Origin: Fibrobacter sp.
Lineage (GTDB): Bacteria; Fibrobacterota; Fibrobacteria; Fibrobacterales; Fibrobacteraceae
Reading direction: 5' to 3'
Length of the DNA: 49,855 nt
Assembly: GCA_012523035.1 (NCBI GenBank)
Contig: JAAYJH010000108.1
Location: forward strand, 1-49,855
The notes below the pieces were generated by a model. That model saw nothing but the letters and a program-made list of their open reading frames with translations. It searched no databases and was not told where the DNA came from. Positions 5,796 to 40,918 of this stretch are shown here, one piece after another. Position 1 is the first letter of the stretch. Every line of letters begins with the position of its first letter. The position numbers and the translations under genes are program-made.

Positions 5796-5863
5796 ATAGT
5801 GCTTTTTATTTATTAGTTTTATAAAGTATGGGTTTAAAAGGTTTTGAAAATATTTGGAGTGTT

Positions 5864-7327
5864 ATGTTTCGAAGTGTTTCTTTTTTGTGGCTTTGTGCGG
5901 CTTTTCTTTTTGCTGCACCTCCTTCTGGTCCAGAGGCGTGGGATCTGATTTTTGAAGATGAGTTCGAGGGTACAGCTTTGGACTCTAAAAAATGGAATTC
6001 AACTTACAATTGGGGGAACACCCACAACCACAGAGCTTATTGTGCTCCAGAAAATATTTTGGTAGAAAATGGTTTTTTGCGTATAAAAGGAGAAGCCAAA
6101 AGACACCCCAAAGCCCCTCCTACAGCCTCTAACGGTGGAAAAACCTATTCTTTGGATTACACCTCGGGAGCCATAGACACTAAAAATAAATTTAGCACTC
6201 AATACGGTTATATAGAGGGGCGTTTCAAGGCTCCCAAACAATTAGGAACTTGGCCTGCATTTTGGACTTTACAAGATGGCTGGCCTCCAGAAATTGATAT
6301 TTTAGAAATCCCTCACGAACGAAACAAGCATCATTATTACATGCACTACACAGAGCCTTCTTGGTATGCTTCTCATGGCGATGCTTGGGATCACGAAGCC
6401 TCGTTTGGAGGCACTCATACAGGACCAAATAAAGCAGAAGCCTTTTACAATTATGGCGTAGAATGGGATAGCGAGAGCATGAAGTTTTATTTTGATGACA
6501 AACAAATCGCATCTTATAATCGAGTTTCAGAAATCAGCCAAGCAAAAGAAATGTATATAATCATCAACTTGGCCATTGGTGGTTGGGCCGGAGATAATAT
6601 AGAAGTCAAAGAAAATAACCCAGCGTATTTTGAGGCAGATTGGGTACGAGTTTGGAAATTAAAGTCTATCTTTCCCGATACGGTTCGGATTCGATCTTTA
6701 GATGAAAACAAATGCATCCTTTTTGAAGATAAAAAACTTTATTTAGGGGATTGTCAAGATGAAAAAGCTTTGCTTCGTTTAAAACAACTGAGTAGCAACA
6801 CCTATGCATTATATTTTGGATCTAAAGTTTTTGAAATCCCCAATGAATCAAAAGACGCTGGAGCTGCAGTGGGTTTGTGGGATTGGAACGGCAAAGACCA
6901 TCAAAAAGTAGTCTTTGAAAAGCAAAAAGATTTTGAATCCTATGTGGTACGAATGAAAATGAAGCATAGTGGGCACTATATTCGTTCTAAAGAGGGATCG
7001 ATAATCCAAGATTGGAATGATTCTTGGCCTTGGAATCAGAATTGGGAGATTATCTTGGACAAAGAAAGTGAAGTCCCTATCGCTTTGAAGCAGACAAAGG
7101 CGGCTTTAATTGAAAGTTTTCAGATCTTCAATAATCACTTGCACCTCCATTTCACTTTGAATGGTGTCGAAATGAAAATAGTGGATTTACAAGGTCGTTT
7201 GTTTTATCATCAAAAACCCTTGGCTCAAAAAAGCATCTCTTTAGAAACTTTTCCGCAGGGAGTCTATCAAGTGATTTTACAAAAAAATCAATACAGACAA
7301 GAATTTAGACTCTTCAAAAGGAATTGA
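5864..7327 (+). CDS. Secreted GH16 family endo-beta-glucanase with C-terminal sorting-like domain
   Basis: The catalytic domain (about residues 25-265 from this start) carries the GH16 active-site motif EIDILE: Glu143 is the expected nucleophile and Glu148 the acid/base. GH16 enzymes cut beta-1,3 or mixed-linkage glucans and related polymers. A middle region (about 268-405) looks like a ricin-type beta-trefoil, with a final NQNWEI. The last 70 residues (MKIVDLQGR, then FPQGVYQVIL) resemble type IX secretion C-terminal sorting domains. The frame also has an ATG at 5828, but the ATG at 5864 gives a standard signal peptide and has GGAG just upstream. Substrate cannot be fixed from sequence alone. 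Confidence 0.9.
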   Translation: MFRSVSFLWLCAAFLFAAPPSGPEAWDLIFEDEFEGTALDSKKWNSTYNWGNTHNHRAYCAPENILVENGFLRIKGEAKRHPKAPPTASNGGKTYSLDYTSGAIDTKNKFSTQYGYIEGRFKAPKQLGTWPAFWTLQDGWPPEIDILEIPHERNKHHYYMHYTEPSWYASHGDAWDHEASFGGTHTGPNKAEAFYNYGVEWDSESMKFYFDDKQIASYNRVSEISQAKEMYIIINLAIGGWAGDNIEVKENNPAYFEADWVRVWKLKSIFPDTVRIRSLDENKCILFEDKKLYLGDCQDEKALLRLKQLSSNTYALYFGSKVFEIPNESKDAGAAVGLWDWNGKDHQKVVFEKQKDFESYVVRMKMKHSGHYIRSKEGSIIQDWNDSWPWNQNWEIILDKESEVPIALKQTKAALIESFQIFNNHLHLHFTLNGVEMKIVDLQGRLFYHQKPLAQKSISLETFPQGVYQVILQKNQYRQEFRLFKRN

Positions 7328-13730: not shown

Positions 13731-14005
13731 TATAGAAGTAGGAAGTGAGAAGTTGTAAGTGTTCGCAGATGAACTATTTTCTTGCAAACAAATCCCTTAT
13801 TTCAAAGCCGCATCTCTCGTTTCTAATTCACATCCTCGCATTTCTGGCATGGTTTTTGCATTATACCCATCCAAAAAACAATTCATATAATTTATTTTCT
13901 GGCACGGTTTTTGCACCGTCCCCTCCGAATTTCGCACCGTCCTCTTCCGATTTTCCATAACATCTCTAATACTAAGTACTTTCCACTTCCAGCTTCCCAC
14001 TATTC
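13731..14005 (+). repeat. Composite intergenic repeat, copy 2 (diverged, without the 19-mer)
   Basis: It begins with GAAGTAGGAAGTGAGAAG and holds two sigma-54-like boxes, TGGCATGGTTTTTGCA (13845-13860) and TGGCACGGTTTTTGCA (13900-13915), then a diverged form of the 48-nt module ending in CCCACTATTC. It lies 56 bp before the chorismate mutase start. Confidence 0.7.
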
Positions 14006-14060: not shown

Positions 14061-14315
14061 ATGAATATCTCTGATTGGCGTAAAAACATAGATGCATTAG
14101 AAGATGATTTGGTTGAACTTCTGAACAAAAGAGCTTCTTATGCAATTGAAATTGGAAACATTAAAAAGAAAGAAGGCCTTCCTGTTTTGGACCAGGCTCG
14201 AGAAGAAGAGATTTTAGATCGTGTATCCAAAAAAACAAAAGGTCCTTTTTCTTCGATGGCAATTCGTGAAATCTTCAAAAAAGTGATAGAAGAAACTAGA
14301 AAAATAGAGGAATAG
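14061..14315 (+). CDS. Chorismate mutase, AroQ class
   Basis: The 84-residue protein is a single AroQ helical domain that converts chorismate to prephenate. Visible signatures are WRKNIDALEDDLVELLNKRA (first helix with the binding arginine) and ARGxxEI-like AREEEILDRV. A longer frame extends upstream, but the ATG at 14061 matches the family start; no strong ribosome site is seen. The stop TAG directly abuts the GTG of the prephenate dehydrogenase gene, so the two act in sequence on the tyrosine branch and are probably co-translated. Confidence 0.92.
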   Translation: MNISDWRKNIDALEDDLVELLNKRASYAIEIGNIKKKEGLPVLDQAREEEILDRVSKKTKGPFSSMAIREIFKKVIEETRKIEE

Positions 14316-15422
14316 GTGAAAAAACAAAGAATAACTTTGGTTGGATTTGGACTTTTAGCATCTTCTATAGCAGCGGCACTCAAACAATCCAAAAAAGATG
14401 TGATCGTGCGGGCAGTGAGTTCAAAAGACACCTTAGAAAGAGCAAAAGCACTTGATTTAGCAGATGAGTTTTATGAATACAGTGACCTTTTGCACTGGGT
14501 GAGTGGTTCTGATCTTATATTTCTTTGCACTCCTATTTCTCGTATTTTTACTTTATTGCACGAATTATTGATGGTCAAACCGATTGAAAAAATAATAGTT
14601 TGCGATATTGGTAGCACCAAGGAAGAAATTTGTAAATTAGGTTTTATTTTAAAAGACCCTTTCTTGTTTGTGGGCACACATCCCATGTCTGGCTCAGAGA
14701 AGTCCTCTTTAGAGTACAATGACCCCTCTATTTTTGAAAATGCTTATTGGTTTTTATGCCCTCCTCCTGGAGTAGACCCCAAAGACTACCAAATCCTTAA
14801 AGATTGTATTTGTTTTTTAGGTTCCCATCCGATTTCTATAGCCCCCAAAGAACACGATTTTATAATGGCGTGGCTGAGTCATATGCCGCAAATTTTAAGC
14901 TCTACTTTGGCCGCTTCGCTTCCTACCGATTTACTCGAAAAAGAGCAGCAACATTATGCCGGTCGTGGATTTAAAGACATGACACGCATTGCGGGTTCTT
15001 CTTGGAATATTTGGAAAGATATTTACGCCACTAACAGCGAATATACTTCTTTGGCTTTGAAGAGCTTAATTCAAGAGCTCCATCAAGTAGATTCATCTTT
15101 AGATTCTTTAAAAGAGACAATTAAACCCCTAGAAAAATTATTTTTAAGGGGAAACGAGGGGAGGGCTTCTCTTTTTGCACCAGGTCGTAATGTATCGGGA
15201 CGGTTTTTTGAATTGACAGTCCCTTTAAAAGACGAGCCAGGGGCACTATTAAGTGTTTTATCTCCTTTGGCTGAGCATAAAATCAATGTTCGAGACATAG
15301 AGTTGATGAAGGTGAGAGAAAACATCGCAGGTACTTTACTTTTAGCATTTAAAAATGAAAGCGAAGCTATTCAGGCAGAAGCTATTCTTAAAAATCTAGC
15401 TTACAAGGTTAAAAAGCGTTAA
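14316..15422 (+). CDS. tyrA: Prephenate dehydrogenase with C-terminal ACT domain
   Basis: This 368-residue enzyme oxidises prephenate to 4-hydroxyphenylpyruvate. The N-terminal dinucleotide loop reads GFGLLASS (residues 10-17), with Ala15 in place of the usual third glycine. GTHPMSGSEKSS holds the expected catalytic His122, and a second signature is HDFIMAWLSHMPQ. A probable ACT regulatory domain occupies about 296-360 (LKDEPGALLSVLSPLAEHKI), suggesting feedback control by an amino acid. The GTG start follows GAGG six bases upstream. The stop overlaps the next start by one base (TAATG). Confidence 0.93.
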   Translation: MKKQRITLVGFGLLASSIAAALKQSKKDVIVRAVSSKDTLERAKALDLADEFYEYSDLLHWVSGSDLIFLCTPISRIFTLLHELLMVKPIEKIIVCDIGSTKEEICKLGFILKDPFLFVGTHPMSGSEKSSLEYNDPSIFENAYWFLCPPPGVDPKDYQILKDCICFLGSHPISIAPKEHDFIMAWLSHMPQILSSTLAASLPTDLLEKEQQHYAGRGFKDMTRIAGSSWNIWKDIYATNSEYTSLALKSLIQELHQVDSSLDSLKETIKPLEKLFLRGNEGRASLFAPGRNVSGRFFELTVPLKDEPGALLSVLSPLAEHKINVRDIELMKVRENIAGTLLLAFKNESEAIQAEAILKNLAYKVKKR

Positions 15423-16771
15423 TGACGGAATTTGTCTTAAATCCAGATTCAGAAATGCTCGAGCAGTGCTTGGTTTTATCGCTTTTGGTCAAAGGTCGAA
15501 CAACAATAGAAGATTTTTCTTGGACAAAAAATGCCAAAAACTTAGTTCAAGTCCTTCAAGATTATGGACTCTCTTATACAGAAAAAGGTTCGCAATTGAT
15601 TTTAGAAGGGGTGGGTTTCCAATATAAAATACCTCCTTTTTTAGCTTATAATTTATCGGAACAAGCATTGATTTTTTTATGGACTTTGGCCTCTAAGGAT
15701 TTTGAAACTCTTTTTTCTTTTTCAGGCCCAGAAGAAGATCTCGAATTTATAAAAGCGGCTACCCTTTTGTTAAAGAAGTATTTTGTGATTCAGGTGCATA
15801 CAGAAGAGAGCTTGTTGTTTCGATTTACATTTTTAGAATCAAAACCTACCCTTAAAAAAAACACTTTAGGAGAAGTCCCTTTTTTATTAAAAAATCGTCT
15901 GATTTTAGGAGCCATCCTTCAAAAAGAAAGCCTTGAATTTCAAGAGAAAATCTCTACTAAAGATTCTTGGACCCGCATGCTTATTTATTTTGGAGCCAAT
16001 ATTGTTTTTGAAAATAGAGGAATGGAGTTGGATGAATTGGCCAGGAGAATGGCCAAAGCTCGAGGGATCAAACTAGAAAGGACATGGCACACACAAATAC
16101 AAGAAACACTTCTTTTGACTACCAGAGATTATTTTGTGCCAGGAGATGTGACTGAATGTACTGCTATTGTGGTCGCTACGCTTTTCTCTAAAGCTCAAAA
16201 AAAATCTGTGAAGATTAAAAATGTATGCATCAATCCTGGTCGAGTGGGTGTGTTCAATGCTTTAAGACGAATGGGAGCTTCTATAGAAATTTTAAGTCGT
16301 CGAGAACGCTATGGTGATTTATTTGGAGATATAGAGGTGAAGCCCCTTCAAGGCAAAAGACTCCAGGCCAGGCGTTTCTCAGAAGAACAAATGGCTTCTT
16401 CTGGTTCCGAATGGCCTTTTTTGGCTTTGGCGGCATGTTTTGCAGAAGGAGAAAGTATTTTAAGGATTCCTTCTGAAAATCAAGAGGTCTTTAAACAAGA
16501 ATTAGAAGATTTTGCGATTAATTTTAGAAAAACAGGTGCCGAAATTGGGGTTTATGATTATGGGATAGTCCTTCGAGGCAAAGAGGAGTTAGATGGAGGA
16601 GATTTCGAGGCTTTTTCTAAACCTGTGCTTGGCTTGACTTTATTTGTATTTTCTTTTTTAGGTCGTGGGCATTCTTCTATAAATAACATAGAGTCATTAG
16701 AAACAGAGTTTAGCGGTTTAACGCAAAAATTAAAGCAACTTTTAAAAGGTGAACCAGATGAAGTTTCGTAA
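15422..16771 (+). CDS. EPSP synthase-like protein lacking catalytic residues
   Basis: The 449-residue length and the segment CINPGRVGVFNALRRMGASI (about 272-291), preceded by VPGDVTECTAIVVATLF, identify the EPSP synthase (AroA) fold. The family's active-site motifs are replaced: the N-terminal PGSKSxxxR position reads NPDSEMLEQ (7-15), the GNAGTAMR position reads NLSEQALIF, the SSQF serine-glutamine position is lost, the catalytic-Asp segment reads SGSEWP, KESDR is absent, and DHR reads FSKP. It probably cannot make EPSP by the known mechanism. It is embedded in a tight tyrA-nadK operon and its frame is intact, so it is likely expressed. A regulatory or altered role is possible but unproven. 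Confidence 0.8.
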   Translation: MTEFVLNPDSEMLEQCLVLSLLVKGRTTIEDFSWTKNAKNLVQVLQDYGLSYTEKGSQLILEGVGFQYKIPPFLAYNLSEQALIFLWTLASKDFETLFSFSGPEEDLEFIKAATLLLKKYFVIQVHTEESLLFRFTFLESKPTLKKNTLGEVPFLLKNRLILGAILQKESLEFQEKISTKDSWTRMLIYFGANIVFENRGMELDELARRMAKARGIKLERTWHTQIQETLLLTTRDYFVPGDVTECTAIVVATLFSKAQKKSVKIKNVCINPGRVGVFNALRRMGASIEILSRRERYGDLFGDIEVKPLQGKRLQARRFSEEQMASSGSEWPFLALAACFAEGESILRIPSENQEVFKQELEDFAINFRKTGAEIGVYDYGIVLRGKEELDGGDFEAFSKPVLGLTLFVFSFLGRGHSSINNIESLETEFSGLTQKLKQLLKGEPDEVS

Positions 16772-17654
16772 AATTGCAATTATAGCATGGAAACACCAAA
16801 GCTCTGAGTTGGCTTTGGCACTCCAAAAAATCAGTGAGTGGGCATTATTGCACCCAGAAATTGAATATATTGCTTCTGAGTCCTTAAAAATACTTTGCCC
16901 GCCCCCTATTCAAGTTGTATCTACAGAAAATTTAAGCAAAGTGCATTTAATTATTGCTATCGGTGGAGATGGTACCATGCTTTCTACGGCTCGATTTGCT
17001 CTTCAAAATTCTACTCCTATTTTGGGAGTGAATGTGGGTCGAGTGGGTTTTTTGGCCGAAACTCAAGTAGAAGATCTACAAGATACTTTGGATTTACTCA
17101 TTTTAGGAAAATTTTCTACTAGTACACGGTTAATGTTAGATATCCAAGTTTATTCTGGTGAAAAAAAAGTGTTTTCTGAAGTCGTTTTAAATGAACTGCA
17201 TATTCGATCTTCTAAGCCCGGTAAAATGGTGAATTTAGAGGTGGATTACAATAAAAAACACTTGACTGAATATTGGGCTGATTCTTTATTGATTTCTACA
17301 CCAACAGGTTCTACAGCTTATAATTTATCTGCAAATGGACCTATCATTTACCCTTCTACATTGGCTTTCGTGCTCACTCCTTTGGCTCCAAGCAGCCTTT
17401 CGGTGCGTCCTTTGATTTTGCCAGCCACCGCAGAGTGTGAAATCCGTTTTGCCTCCAAAGGAGTTGGACTCAGCCTTGTGTTCGATGGCAATTCCTCTTA
17501 TGAATTAAAACCTGGAGAGCGGATTGTTATTTCTAAAAGTCAATCGGTCACTACTTTTATTCGAGTGAAATCTTCTGCTTTTGTCGATGCATTGCGAGAA
17601 AAGTTAGGATGGACGGGAAAACCTAAGTTAAAAACTGAGCCTTTTTCAAAGTAA
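16758..17654 (+). CDS. nadK: NAD kinase
   Basis: The protein phosphorylates NAD to NADP. The 298 residues include the GGDGT motif (69-73), the following NVGRVGFLAE, and the second-domain signature STPTGSTAYNLSANGPI. The ATG at 16758 follows AAAAGG and gives a 14-bp overlap with the preceding gene; a GTG at 16749 is possible. Operon partnership with tyrA may link NADP supply to a dehydrogenase, but nadK is often in mixed operons. The gene ends 13 bp before a dispersed 19-mer copy. Confidence 0.95.
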   Translation: MKFRKIAIIAWKHQSSELALALQKISEWALLHPEIEYIASESLKILCPPPIQVVSTENLSKVHLIIAIGGDGTMLSTARFALQNSTPILGVNVGRVGFLAETQVEDLQDTLDLLILGKFSTSTRLMLDIQVYSGEKKVFSEVVLNELHIRSSKPGKMVNLEVDYNKKHLTEYWADSLLISTPTGSTAYNLSANGPIIYPSTLAFVLTPLAPSSLSVRPLILPATAECEIRFASKGVGLSLVFDGNSSYELKPGERIVISKSQSVTTFIRVKSSAFVDALREKLGWTGKPKLKTEPFSK

Positions 17655-22838: not shown

Positions 22839-24338
22839 ATGCTTTTTACAAAAAAGACTTTCTTTTGTTTTTTTTTAATGTTTTCTCTTTTGTTTTCAGA
22901 AGAAGTCTTTCAATATGGAAACAAATTAGAGTTTTTCGTGCGCATCGACACAGAAGACGCCGAAATCACAGCATACATGCCAACACATAAAAAACTCTTT
23001 AGCATTGGAGGGAATGCATCTTTATCTGTTTACGATTTTTCTAAGCCACAAGCCCCTCAAATCATTCAAAAAATAAAACTCCAAGGAGAAGCCTCCAGTA
23101 TTTCTGTATACAATGATTTAGTAGCCTTGGCACTGATTTCAGAAAGGCACACAGATCCTGGAAAAGTCCTTTTATATCGATACCAAGATTCTTTAGAACT
23201 CTACAAAAGCATCGAAGTGTGTGCAGAACCAGACATGTTAAGCTTTGGCCCACACGGCGATTTCATCTTAGTCGCTTGTGAAGCCTCTCCCTCTAAAGAC
23301 GGCAGTATAGACCCAGAAGGCCAGGTTGCCTATATCGATTTAAGTCAAAAACCACAAGTTCAAACTCATATTTTAGACTTTAGGCATTTAGACAGCACTT
23401 CGTTACTAAAAAAAGGGGTACGGGTGAGTGGTCCAGCCAATTTTTATCAAAATTTAGAACCAGAATATATTGCCATAGATTCCAGTGGGCAATATGCATG
23501 GGTGAGCCTTCAAGAAAACAATGCCATTGCTTTAATAGACATCCATCAAAAAAAAATAACAGAAGTCTTTCCTTTGGGCACTTTAGATCACAGCTTGGCC
23601 TCTAACTCTTTTGACGCACAAAAAGACAAAAAAGCAAAACTCATTCAAGCTCCAGTCCTAGGGATGCGTCAACCCGATGGCATTGCGGTTCACTCCAAAA
23701 ACAACAAACACTATGTATTCACAGCCAACGAAGGCGCTTCAAAAAAAGAATCTTATTTCACCGATGAAACCAACATCCAAAAATTAGTTGCCAACAACGC
23801 TTTATCTTTAAAAAGCTTCACTCCTAGTATCATAGAATCACTAGAAAAACTCATAGTCTCTAAAATGGACACCTGCAAAAATCAATCCTGCGAAAAAGTC
23901 TATAGTTTTGGCTCTCGCTCCATGAGTGTATTGGATGGAAAAACGGGTAAAATCCTCTTTGACAGTCAAAATCAAATCGAAACTTTACTAGCCAAAATAG
24001 CCCCCTCTTATTTTAATTGGAACGCCAAAAAGGGCAAAAAAAAGACTGACACTCGAAGCCACTACAAAGGCCCTGAACCCGAAAACATCACCATAGGGAC
24101 AGTCAAAGGTAAAAACTACGCTTTTTTAGGCTTAGAACGCATGTCGGGAATCTTAGTCTGGGACATAGAAAACCCTGAAAACCCAAGCATAATCGATTAT
24201 TATTTGAATCCCAAAGACAGAGGCCCCGAAGGAATCCTTTTCATCCCCGAAAAATCCAGTCCCATCCCTGGCACCCCTTTACTGGTCGTAGCCTATGAAT
24301 ACAGTGAAAGCATAGTCGTTTACACTTTTAAAAAATGA
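22839..24338 (+). CDS. Secreted choice-of-anchor I family beta-propeller protein
   Basis: The 499-residue protein starts with a signal peptide (about 1-21) and then shows propeller-like repeats with signatures of the choice-of-anchor I group: SIGGNASLSVYDFS near the start, PEYIAIDSSGQYAWVSLQEN in the middle, QPDGIAVHSKNNKHYVFTANEGAS, and PEPENITIGTVKGKNYAFLGLERMSG near the end. Members are extracellular and of unknown function; some resemble alkaline-phosphatase-associated proteins. No anchor or sorting domain is evident at its C-terminus, which ends in TFKK. The stop TGA is also the first three bases of the TG-AAGTC repeat. The start follows AGGTG. Confidence 0.85.
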   Translation: MLFTKKTFFCFFLMFSLLFSEEVFQYGNKLEFFVRIDTEDAEITAYMPTHKKLFSIGGNASLSVYDFSKPQAPQIIQKIKLQGEASSISVYNDLVALALISERHTDPGKVLLYRYQDSLELYKSIEVCAEPDMLSFGPHGDFILVACEASPSKDGSIDPEGQVAYIDLSQKPQVQTHILDFRHLDSTSLLKKGVRVSGPANFYQNLEPEYIAIDSSGQYAWVSLQENNAIALIDIHQKKITEVFPLGTLDHSLASNSFDAQKDKKAKLIQAPVLGMRQPDGIAVHSKNNKHYVFTANEGASKKESYFTDETNIQKLVANNALSLKSFTPSIIESLEKLIVSKMDTCKNQSCEKVYSFGSRSMSVLDGKTGKILFDSQNQIETLLAKIAPSYFNWNAKKGKKKTDTRSHYKGPEPENITIGTVKGKNYAFLGLERMSGILVWDIENPENPSIIDYYLNPKDRGPEGILFIPEKSSPIPGTPLLVVAYEYSESIVVYTFKK

Positions 24339-39418: not shown

Positions 39419-40918
39419 ATGAAACGATTTTTTTTGCTTTTTTTGTTTTTGACTCTTTCTGTCTCTGCTAAAGAATCTATCGATTCTTTGGCTACTATAG
39501 AAAAAAGATTTAACGAAAAAGATGATTTTTACGCTGTAGTGCTACTAGACCGTTACTTACAAGATAGGGAAGATTTTCATCTGTCTTTATGGCGAGTCTG
39601 GGGAGAATTAAACATCGATGATTTAGAGAGTGCCAAGTCACACTTGCACCCTTTAATAAACATGGATTCCAATCATTTTAAACTCAATGAATGTGACCAG
39701 ACAAGAGCACAACTCATCCACCTATACTCACTTTATTTTGAAAACCAAAAAGGCCATTTGTCAAAACAACTCCAAAGACGACGCAGCCGTATCATGCGAG
39801 AAATTTTTTCTCAAATACGAAATTCTCAATGTATTTATCAAGAAGATCGAGCTCTTTATGAATATTTAAGTCGTGTGGTACAACCCTCTTGGAATCAAGT
39901 CTTTTCTGGTAGAGTTTTATATGGCTTGGGTTACAGTCAAAATCCATTTTATGATAATAACACCATCAAAGATTCAGATTCCAAGTTTTTTCATAGGTGG
40001 GGGACTGGTTTTGGCGTTAAACCGTGGGTAGAGAATAAAACCATACAACCTCATGGCGATCTAATGCTTCAATCTTGGTACTATTTTCCTAATGCAAACC
40101 AAGAATACCACCGTTCCACTGCAAGGGTAAAGTTAGGTGCTTATGTTTTGAACCATTTATTTTCATTCAAAACTTATTTCACTGGTTTATTGCTGTTGCA
40201 AAAAGATTCTTTGTATCCAGAATATCCAATTTCTCAAGAACAGAAATCTCTAGATTTAGATTTTCTACTTTTAAATAAGCTAGGTTTTTCTTTTTTAGCA
40301 GGCTCTAGACTTTTTAGAGATTCCCCATTTTCTAGAAAAGAAATAGAAAGTTCAATTTATCTAAAACATTCTTTTACAACTTCTTTGCTTGTGCACGGTG
40401 CATATAAACGAGGCTCTTATTACACCAAAGATTCATGGAATCAATTTTCTAAAAATAGCTTTCAATTTTCGTTGTTATGGTGGATGCACCCTAAAATTGA
40501 ATCTTGGAACACCATAGCTTATGAATCCAGAGTGTATAATGCCAAAAACAACCCTAGAAAAGATAGGCTTTATTTGTGGGAATCCTCTCTTGCTTATGCA
40601 TTTTATAAAGATTTTCAATTGAATTTGACTTACACTTATTATTTCAAAAAAATGAATCGCTACAAAGAACACGAAAGTGCTATAAAGCAAAACACCAAAG
40701 TAAAAGACCAAACGATTGCTATCCATTTAGAATGGAATCCTCAATTTAGCATTCAAAAAATCCCTAGCCAAAAAAATCCAAGTCCATATTTGAGCCCTTG
40801 GGCCTCCTCTTTTAGTTTAAAAGAAAACATTGATATAGATTCTAAAATAGAGCAAGTCGAAGAAAAGTTTCAAGACAGAGAAACTCATATGCAAGGTGGA
40901 ATGCGCTGTAAAGAATAA
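39419..40918 (+). CDS. Exported protein with TPR-like N-terminus and probable outer-membrane barrel
   Basis: I do not recognise a named family. The 499-residue protein has a signal peptide (about 1-19, LSVSA). Residues about 20-150 are helical and tetratricopeptide-like. From about 165 to 470 the sequence alternates hydrophobic and aromatic strands with turns (GRVLYGLGYSQN, YHRSTARVKLGAYVL, FQLNLTYTYYFKK), as expected for a beta-barrel. This plan recalls TPR-plus-barrel outer-membrane proteins, but that is structural impression. A short non-barrel tail ends GGMRCKE. It is convergent with pgpA. The composite repeat with sigma-54-like boxes lies directly upstream. Confidence 0.75.
   Translation: MKRFFLLFLFLTLSVSAKESIDSLATIEKRFNEKDDFYAVVLLDRYLQDREDFHLSLWRVWGELNIDDLESAKSHLHPLINMDSNHFKLNECDQTRAQLIHLYSLYFENQKGHLSKQLQRRRSRIMREIFSQIRNSQCIYQEDRALYEYLSRVVQPSWNQVFSGRVLYGLGYSQNPFYDNNTIKDSDSKFFHRWGTGFGVKPWVENKTIQPHGDLMLQSWYYFPNANQEYHRSTARVKLGAYVLNHLFSFKTYFTGLLLLQKDSLYPEYPISQEQKSLDLDFLLLNKLGFSFLAGSRLFRDSPFSRKEIESSIYLKHSFTTSLLVHGAYKRGSYYTKDSWNQFSKNSFQFSLLWWMHPKIESWNTIAYESRVYNAKNNPRKDRLYLWESSLAYAFYKDFQLNLTYTYYFKKMNRYKEHESAIKQNTKVKDQTIAIHLEWNPQFSIQKIPSQKNPSPYLSPWASSFSLKENIDIDSKIEQVEEKFQDRETHMQGGMRCKE

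Follow-up and report, generated by a model that had tools for sequence, protein, structure and literature searches.

An EPSP synthase homologue without the EPSP synthase active site is retained in the tyrA-nadK operon of Fibrobacterota

Introduction

EPSP synthase (EPSPS), the target of glyphosate, has been much studied. The described proteins closest to the one analyzed here are the class II-type EPSPSs, among which we count the structures 3rmt, 3roi, 2gg4 and 1rf4 (the class I and class II labels of EPSPS structures are used here as we presume them to be), and the fusions of TyrA and EPSPS (NF011381, PRK14806).

Dead or recruited relatives of pathway enzymes have precedents. In Pseudomonas syringae the EPSPS part of a TyrA-EPSPS fusion lost its function and a stand-alone EPSPS gene was acquired; the EPSPS domain of the fusion is reported to have an N-terminal deletion in two places and a C-terminal truncation in another (PMC1173090). 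The prozyme, a paralogue without catalytic activity, activates AdoMet decarboxylase (PMC5201418). In mycobacteria, chorismate mutase and DAHP synthase form a complex in which the chorismate mutase is activated (PMC4281200, PMC9910054), and in land plants shikimate kinase-like 1 acts in chloroplast biogenesis (PMC12203367).

Here we analyze a window of 49,855 nucleotides, the whole stretch examined, from contig JAAYJH010000108.1 of Fibrobacter sp., which encodes an EPSPS homologue that we call pEPSP. Like the class II-type enzymes, with which it is homologous over both lobes, pEPSP retains the NP-R-G---L--MGA and DG-----G strands, but it lacks the active-site residues, carries an insert, and is accompanied in the genome by a separate intact AroA. 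It shares with the TyrA-EPSPS fusions the order of TyrA followed by EPSPS; here, however, the two are separate overlapping genes and the EPSPS part has no active site. The P. syringae fusion can be viewed as a young precedent, with a non-functional EPSPS beside TyrA and a separate EPSPS supplied, although as described it is a recent truncation in one species and within a fusion, whereas pEPSP is separate, nearly full-length, bears an insert and is found phylum-wide (PMC1173090). The prozyme resembles pEPSP as a dead paralogue retained beside an active pathway enzyme; its partner, however, is a homologous enzyme whose activation is reported, while pEPSP has only a candidate partner and AroA is encoded elsewhere (PMC5201418). 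The mycobacterial complex offers the analogy of a shikimate-pathway protein that activates chorismate mutase, as may be the case for pEPSP, but there the activator is a different protein and a live enzyme (PMC4281200, PMC9910054). Shikimate kinase-like 1 is likewise a shikimate-pathway paralogue kept for another role, but derives from a different enzyme (PMC12203367). A literature search, with most subscription journals outside it, returned no account of a conserved dead EPSPS branch and no report of a regulatory use of the EPSPS fold of the kind proposed below.

Results

The pEPSP gene (positions 15422 to 16771, forward strand) was identified from the open reading frame list, its PF00275 and PDB sequence matches, a family profile and its residue losses. 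It is an intact frame of 449 codons that starts with ATG and, as the initial annotation had stated, overlaps both neighbors. Upstream on the same strand are a chorismate mutase gene (PF01817, by Pfam; 14061 to 14315), listed from a TTG at 13911 but more likely starting at the ATG at 14061 by comparison with relatives, and the gene for the prephenate dehydrogenase TyrA (14316 to 15422; frame list and profile matches), whose C-terminal region is ACT-like, with an ACT match of 26.2 bits that is slightly below the Pfam cut-off of 27. The NAD kinase gene nadK (16749 to 17654, forward strand; frame list and Pfam) follows. The TyrA frame overlaps that of pEPSP by 1 base, and pEPSP overlaps nadK by 23 bases from the listed GTG at 16749 or by 14 from the ATG at 16758, which is the likelier start because many relatives begin with MKF. 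These overlaps suggest translational coupling of the operon genes. TyrA and pEPSP are separate frames and do not form a fused polypeptide. A promoter and terminator scan found 17 and 4 candidates, respectively, against 13.7 and 4.4 in shuffled sequences. A single stop was flagged in some of the stretches matched by pEPSP searches; the flagged stretch begins 5' of the ATG in L010, in L017 and in the window itself, and L033 is a single frame.

Residues 193-436 of pEPSP match PF00275 (EPSP_synthase; E = 1.1e-15, 57.7 bits, cut-off 22.8), as do, at E ≤ 0.001, all 27 members from families f8-f13. The EPSPS signature that had been read from the sequence is indeed kept: residues 271-286, NPGRVGVFNALRRMGA, align with NPTRLGVINLLKMMGA of a solved EPSPS. 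The equivalog models, on the other hand, score far below what they require, at 73.4 bits against 287.25 for AroA (TIGR01356) and 34.6 against 392.7 for MurA (TIGR01072), for which the MurA of the same genome (L002) scores 528.3. Together with the loss of active-site residues, these scores argue against pEPSP being a true AroA or MurA. By bits, NF011381, the model of the TyrA-EPSPS fusion, ranks first in NCBIfam; its score of 90 bits lies below the cut-off of 902, and all 27 members of our alignment A1 match it.

A search of PDB sequences with pEPSP gave 17 matches up to an E-value of 1, namely 12 class II-type EPSPSs, 5 weak MurA matches and no class I enzyme; one of the 12 is a designed hydrolase on an EPSPS scaffold. 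Among the best 60 of 75 matches of the A1 profile to structures, class II-type enzymes scored 175-235 bits, class I at most 85 and MurA at most 64. By these sequence comparisons, pEPSP descends from a class II-type EPSPS, with class I EPSPS and MurA both more distant. An AlphaFold model made from two sequences was poor (pLDDT 58, pTM 0.46, with residues 191-240 at 25-33). Foldseek with this model placed class II-type EPSPS first (best E = 1.6e-19), at TM-scores of only 0.36-0.45, so that it speaks weakly for the EPSPS fold and not at all to active-site geometry.

The pEPSPs group in a tree largely by family, with f8, f12 and f13 split, in line with vertical descent of these sequences. With its long branches and its single reference of class II, the tree neither settles where pEPSP belongs among the canonical enzymes nor shows the pEPSPs as one clade separate from them; a single origin is suggested by the shared insert and operon position. 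A single-sequence search of genome contigs for relatives found only a canonical AroA from SAR11 (L034), which served as a reference, and a scan of viral contigs with A1 found no pEPSP relative.

To describe the active site we use the numbering of E. coli EPSPS, transferred through the AroA of the same genome, with the N-terminal lobe columns from N94 to Q171 less surely aligned. We take K22, R27, D313, K340, E341, R344, H385 and R386 to be the core PEP/S3P-binding and catalytic residues. In the degenerate N-terminal lobe of the window pEPSP (residues 1-199; 15422 to 16018, forward strand), K22 is replaced by S, S23 by E, R27 by Q, N94 by L, G96 by E, T97 by Q, R100 by I and Q171 by L, and the GNAGT and SSQ motifs are unrecognizable. 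In the C-terminal EPSPS-like lobe (residues 227-443; 16100 to 16750, forward strand), D313 is replaced by S, K340 by V, E341 by F, D343 by Q, R344 by E and D384-H385-R386 by K-P-V, so that the equivalents of D313, KETDR and DHR are all substituted. None of the eight core residues is left, and no protein among 72 aligned pEPSPs has more than two. R27, H385 and R386 are each kept in 0/72, K340 in 1/72 and K22 in 4/72; D313 is present in 21/72 and E341 in 11/72, distributed by clade. The claimed loss of the N-terminal Lys-Ser and Arg, the GNAGTAMR arginine, SSQ, KESDR and DHR thus holds for the window protein. That of the catalytic Asp holds there too, but not as a general loss. This alignment omits the contig-end fragments L027 and L044, the fragment L118, and the repeats L052 (of L029), L053 (of L032) and L117 (of L055).

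The active-site columns are, by alignment entropy, no more conserved than background. At ten well-anchored columns the entropy was 1.89 against 1.44 for the background in family f1 (P = 0.054 for more variable) and 1.67 against 1.81 in the f8-f13 clade (P = 0.68). All 20 mapped sites in f1 gave P = 0.0003 for more variable, a set that includes the poorly anchored N-terminal lobe columns. Because the well-anchored sites give P = 0.054 and 0.68, we conclude only that these columns are not conserved.

As the initial annotation had proposed to check, we looked for a second, canonical aroA and found it: the same genome encodes an intact AroA and an intact MurA away from the pEPSP locus. A canonical AroA scored above the family cut-off in 56 of 60 genomes. 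In three others (G013, G019, G048) AroA is a contig-end piece below the cut-off, and in G036, which is 87% complete, none was found. The 21 AroAs aligned from the same family show no variation at any of the 20 mapped active-site positions.

The segment inserted between the lobes (about residues 200-225; 16019 to 16096, forward strand) contains DELARRMAKARG and is not seen in the canonical enzymes compared. Between fixed columns this region spans 51-69 residues in the 72 pEPSPs, against 29-30 in the AroA and MurA of the same genome and the SAR11 AroA, and it is an unaligned gap against the solved EPSPSs 3rmt and 3tr1. Within it lies the most constant charged residue of pEPSP, R209 (codon 16046 to 16048, forward strand), which is Arg in 71/72; position 208 is Arg or Lys in 71/72. 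Only R209 and D242, which is common with canonical EPSPS, are polar and more than 90% conserved over the 72 sequences. Relatives in genus g5 lack about 80 residues of the N-terminal lobe. The f8-f13 clade (27 sequences, alignment A3) has 23 invariant columns, including D253, N276, K292, K324, D388, D399 and C422, and nearly invariant C327, C375, R356, R362, R382 and E385 (L056 numbering). These invariant polar residues of its own could mark an active site, a point we count against a non-catalytic subunit.

Over 74 loci the prevailing gene order is chorismate mutase-TyrA-pEPSP-NadK, which puts pEPSP next to genes acting further along the aromatic pathway. (L052 and L053 replace L029 and L032 in these counts, and L027 and L044 are included.) A locus has room for a neighbor if the neighbor was found, or if the contig runs on at that side for a minimum of 300 bases in the case of TyrA and NadK and 1300 bases in that of chorismate mutase. 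By this measure, chorismate mutase is upstream in 64/67 loci, TyrA upstream in 65/71, with many ends overlapping by 1-4 bases, and NadK downstream in 66/69, also with many overlapping ends. G077, G090 and G091 have no chorismate mutase adjoining pEPSP. The upstream chorismate mutases are of two types, PF01817-like in f1-f6 and plant/yeast (TIGR01802) in f8, f9 and f11-f13, which makes one specific interface with pEPSP less obvious.

Six genomes from three lineages (G052, listed as 100% complete, and G078, G079, G080, G088 and G089, at 77-96%) carry pEPSP without a TyrA above family cut-offs. There, chorismate mutase is immediately upstream of pEPSP and NadK still adjoins it. PF02153 had no match in five of the six, and its 21 bits in G052 do not reach the cut-off; NF005107 had none in four and marginal matches in G088 and G089 (9.3e-4 and 9.5e-5). 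In family f7 pEPSP was not found, and in the three f7 genomes in which both genes were found chorismate mutase and TyrA are on separate contigs.

In total, 156 of the 167 Fibrobacterota genomes were counted as carrying pEPSP, and these fall into 11 of the 13 families. A check of dN/dS across relatives, another of the proposed tests, gave 0.042-0.199 in 22 of 23 pairs and 0.404 in the remaining pair, indicating purifying selection. Retention in so many genomes under such selection excludes chance as the source of pEPSP. The protein evolves faster than the neighboring gene products: across 91 genome pairs its mean identity is 47.5%, and that of the neighbors in these pairs is 61-62%. One copy (L054, in G014) is C-terminally shortened to 332 aa and has no adjoining NadK; the other 71 of the 72 aligned copies show no visible shortening besides the common g5 deletion.

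Discussion

The initial suggestion of a pseudoenzyme kept under selection is supported by the sequence evidence: intact AroA and MurA are encoded elsewhere, the residue loss is phylum-wide, the active-site columns are unconserved and dN/dS is low. Enolpyruvyl transfer would no longer be catalyzed by pEPSP. The present job of the protein is probably non-catalytic and possibly regulatory. We give about an even chance to the reading that pEPSP is a pseudoenzyme of EPSPS fold that serves the prephenate branch point as a non-catalytic subunit with a binding or regulatory part, perhaps acting on chorismate mutase. It would be produced together with its neighbors there, and its likeliest partner would be the AroQ-type chorismate mutase encoded upstream. 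The insert could provide a contact or switch toward that enzyme, the old ligand cleft could serve as a sensor, and control might follow the mycobacterial model, in which a partner protein activates chorismate mutase. The gene neighborhood may, on the other hand, reflect co-regulation only.

The main competing explanation, in our judgment unlikely, is a neofunctionalized enzyme in which the EPSPS fold catalyzes another reaction with a new residue set. The retention of pEPSP in 11 families speaks for it, as do the many polar residues among the invariant columns of the f8-f13 clade, in which such a change is least unlikely; yet only D242 and R209 are polar and conserved over the whole alignment, and the N-terminal lobe deletion of g5 would disturb a two-lobe active site. 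A role confined to TyrA, as its scaffold or allosteric subunit and in effect the TyrA-EPSPS fusion in unfused form, appears improbable. The frequent overlap with an upstream TyrA and the best match to NF011381 fit such a role, but it is weakened because pEPSP persists in the six genomes without a TyrA over the cut-offs. A role as partner or regulator of NAD kinase, the most constant downstream neighbor and one that stays where TyrA is missing, is quite doubtful as well: NadK adjoins TyrA without pEPSP in two f7 genomes (L111, L115), and L045, L054 and L103 carry pEPSP without a downstream NadK.

It is very hard to believe that pEPSP has remained an EPSP synthase whose catalytic residues come from shifted positions; the fold is recognizable and D313 and E341 survive in some clades, but R27, H385 and R386 are gone from every sequence, the active-site columns are not conserved and the same genomes hold an intact AroA. 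Equally hard to credit is a decaying, functionless relic, for which the faster evolution, the absence from f7 and the one shortened copy could be cited, since occurrence in 156 of 167 genomes and low dN/dS make it unlikely and nearly all copies are unshortened.

Returning to the regulatory subunit, we can sketch a fuller history, which in this detailed form is rather speculative: with EPSP synthesis covered by the separate intact AroA, a class II-type EPSPS in the tyrA operon would have gained the inter-lobe insert and become, phylum-wide, a metabolite-sensing allosteric subunit controlling chorismate mutase and perhaps, through the coupled NAD kinase, NADP supply.

Homology-based naming could mislabel pEPSP as a second AroA, and surveys of EPSPS genes that count family matches may miscount it. 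Within Fibrobacterota, a nearly full-length EPSPS homologue without an active site has been retained across a phylum, and steps in its history can be read: an intact AroA is present, an insert was gained, a lobe was shortened in one genus and the gene is absent from one family. pEPSP offers a testable system for the recruitment of a dead enzyme to a new task.

The pEPSP locus and the canonical enzymes of the same genome

In the window, which derives from a 2.2 Mb draft genome (contig C70), four closely packed genes lie on the + strand. According to the ORF listing and Pfam, they encode a chorismate mutase (likely 14061-14315), TyrA (14316-15422), pEPSP, the EPSP synthase-fold protein studied here (15422-16771, 449 aa), and NadK (starting at 16749 or 16758 and ending at 17654). 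pEPSP matches Pfam EPSP_synthase with 57.7 bits, while its AroA equivalog score of 73.4 bits is far below the cut-off of 287.25. The initial annotation had raised the question of a second, canonical aroA. One is present on contig C43 (433 aa, 453.3 bits with TIGR01356), as is a canonical MurA on contig C74 (419 aa, 528.3 bits with TIGR01072). Since the same genome encodes both enzymes, EPSP synthesis should not require pEPSP in this cell. Elsewhere in the window, Pfam results differ for three ORFs of exactly 499 aa (5828-7327, 22839-24338, and 39419-40918): one is a GH16 glycosidase that also matches a secretion tail weakly, one is a choice-of-anchor I protein, and one has no match.

Loss of the active site

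Active-site positions were transferred to pEPSP from two reference AroAs, that of the same genome and one from SAR11, using E. coli EPSPS residue numbers and roles. The window pEPSP keeps none of the eight core residues, and R27, G96, H385, and R386 are kept in none of 72 pEPSPs, bearing out the active-site loss first proposed for the window protein. K340 and S23 are each kept in one of the 72, N94 and T97 in two, and K22 in four, all of genus g5. Others persist more often (R344 in 8, Q171 in 10, E341 in 11, D313 in 21), including R100, kept in 21 sequences that all fall within the clade of families f8-f13. None of the core residues is kept in 31 pEPSPs, one in 37, and two in 4. In contrast, 21 AroAs of family f1 show no variation at any of the 20 mapped residues. 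By entropy, the ten well-anchored active-site columns of pEPSP are no more conserved than background (1.89 versus 1.44 in f1; 1.67 versus 1.81 in the f8-f13 clade). pEPSP is very likely a conserved protein without EPSPS chemistry.

Conserved features, descent, and rate of evolution

The inter-lobe stretch between two fixed columns spans 51-69 residues in pEPSP versus 29-30 in the genome's own AroA and MurA and in SAR11 AroA, and stays unaligned when the pEPSP profile is aligned with the solved structures 3rmt and 3tr1. Arg209 occurs in 71 of the 72 pEPSPs (His in L109), and position 208 is Arg or Lys in 71. Besides Asp242, which is common to canonical enzymes, Arg209 alone among polar residues exceeds 90% conservation in this set. 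Strong motifs particular to the f8-f13 clade include LGARHGEMPDGIV and FDGFD, and 23 columns are invariant among 27 sequences. In this clade Cys422 (L056 numbering) is invariant and Cys327 and Cys375 nearly so; these cysteines could be metal ligands.

Among solved structures, the window pEPSP matched class II-type EPSPS (best E-value 2e-19), MurA much more weakly (2.1e-3 and above), and class I EPSPS not at all up to E 1. Among the 60 best of 75 matches to the pEPSP profile, class II-type enzymes scored 175-235 bits, class I at most 85, and MurA at most 64. A structure model from a two-row alignment had pLDDT 58 and pTM 0.46, with confidence of 25-33 over residues 191-240, blocks of 50-86 thereafter, and a helix drawn at 203-213 with low confidence. 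Foldseek ranked class II-type EPSPS first for this model (TM 0.36-0.45). In the tree, pEPSPs group largely by family, and their deep placement is left open. The canonical AroA of f1-f5 is an AroA-Cmk-like enzyme wherever a full-length match was listed, whereas a second intact type (SKSHTIR, PDALPA, KETDR, DHR) characterizes the five AroAs examined from f6, f7, f9 (two), and f11 (L150-L154). This difference suggests that AroA was displaced in one branch of the phylum.

Retention under selection, also proposed initially, agrees with dN/dS values of 0.042-0.199 in 22 of 23 non-independent genome pairs with pEPSP dS < 1.6 (0.404 in the other, G018-G019). Where dS is < 0.6 (five pairs), values were 0.042-0.121 for pEPSP, 0.039-0.126 for TyrA, and 0.041-0.081 for NadK; AroA, with data in four of them, gave 0.040-0.053. 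pEPSP changes more rapidly than the genes around it: across a common set of 91 pairs, its mean identity is 47.5% versus 61.6% for TyrA, 61.2% for NadK, 61.7% for chorismate mutase, and 62.3% for AroA.

About 80 N-terminal-lobe residues are missing from pEPSPs of genus g5 (363-367 aa in L030-L033), whose open frames measure 337-386 codons in all 12 genomes. One of these proteins (L054, genome G014) is also shortened C-terminally, to 332 aa, and lacks an adjacent NadK, in whose place stand unrelated small ORFs.

Distribution across the phylum

Counting the genome of the window itself, a single-sequence search found pEPSP in 53 of 60 genomes. The 27-sequence profile A1 had a match (E ≤ 0.001) in 166 of the phylum's 167 genomes, again counting that genome; because canonical AroA and MurA also match it weakly, we counted pEPSP only at a best E ≤ 1e-40 (155 genomes), adding G081, where a contig-end fragment (L118) adjoins TyrA. 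The resulting count of 156 of 167 genomes, in 11 of 13 families, rests on profile E-values, with 74 loci read individually. Among the 11 genomes not counted, G060 (f10) is uninformative because its TyrA extends to the contig end. G015, G062, G143, G149, and G166 are 69-86% complete and TyrA was likewise not found in them, as expected if the assembly omits the whole locus. The other five belong to f7; in two f7 genomes (L111, L115) TyrA is followed directly by NadK with no pEPSP between, and absence throughout the family may reflect a single loss. The Fibro_Slime family TIGR02148 was present in 12 of 14 phylum genomes tested (not G052 or G053) versus none of 14 controls, which points to Fibrobacterota as the phylum. 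Its composition, with one dominant genus and genomes mostly of 2-4 Mb, would suit Fibrobacter.

Gene neighbourhood and possible partner

Neighbours were counted at the 74 loci, with loci having room on the relevant side as denominators. NadK lies immediately downstream of pEPSP in 66 of 69 (exceptions L045, L054, L103), and upstream lie TyrA in 65 of 71 and chorismate mutase in 64 of 67 (exceptions L093, L113, L116). At the six TyrA-less loci, chorismate mutase is immediately upstream of pEPSP. No TyrA above family cut-offs was found in those genomes (G052, G078, G079, G080, G088, G089), the marginal matches being G088 at 9.3e-4 and G089 at 9.5e-5 (NF005107) and G052 at 6.2e-4 (PF02153); these organisms may be tyrosine auxotrophs or may rely on a different route. 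Within f7, three genomes (G053, G054, G083) yielded both chorismate mutase and TyrA, and there the two genes sit on separate contigs. On these patterns, chorismate mutase is more likely than TyrA to be the partner of pEPSP, although neighbourhood is not interaction, and its identification as the partner is still tentative.

The chorismate mutase of f1-f6 resembles the PF01817 protein of the window, and that of f8, f9, and f11-f13 is the plant/yeast type (TIGR01802; for example L092, L106, L107, L090, L094); both are AroQ-class. Of 37 genomes searched, 31 have a TIGR01802 protein, versus none of 14 controls; it scores 189 bits in G086, where it adjoins TyrA and pEPSP, and 210 bits in G054. The gene preceding it in L106 and L090 resembles trpA.

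Among the papers listed by a literature search, mostly lacking coverage of subscription journals, none reports a pseudoenzyme of the EPSPS family. PMC1173090 describes TyrA-EPSPS fusions (the EPSPS being called 'aroF' there). According to that paper, the EPSPS domain of P. syringae is truncated and accompanied by a second EPSPS gene that was probably acquired by transfer; it suggests that such a truncated remnant might become a new regulatory domain. pEPSP, for its part, probably acts on a partner without catalysis. To the proposal as a whole, in which pEPSP would serve the prephenate branch point as a subunit without catalysis of its own, we give about an even chance.
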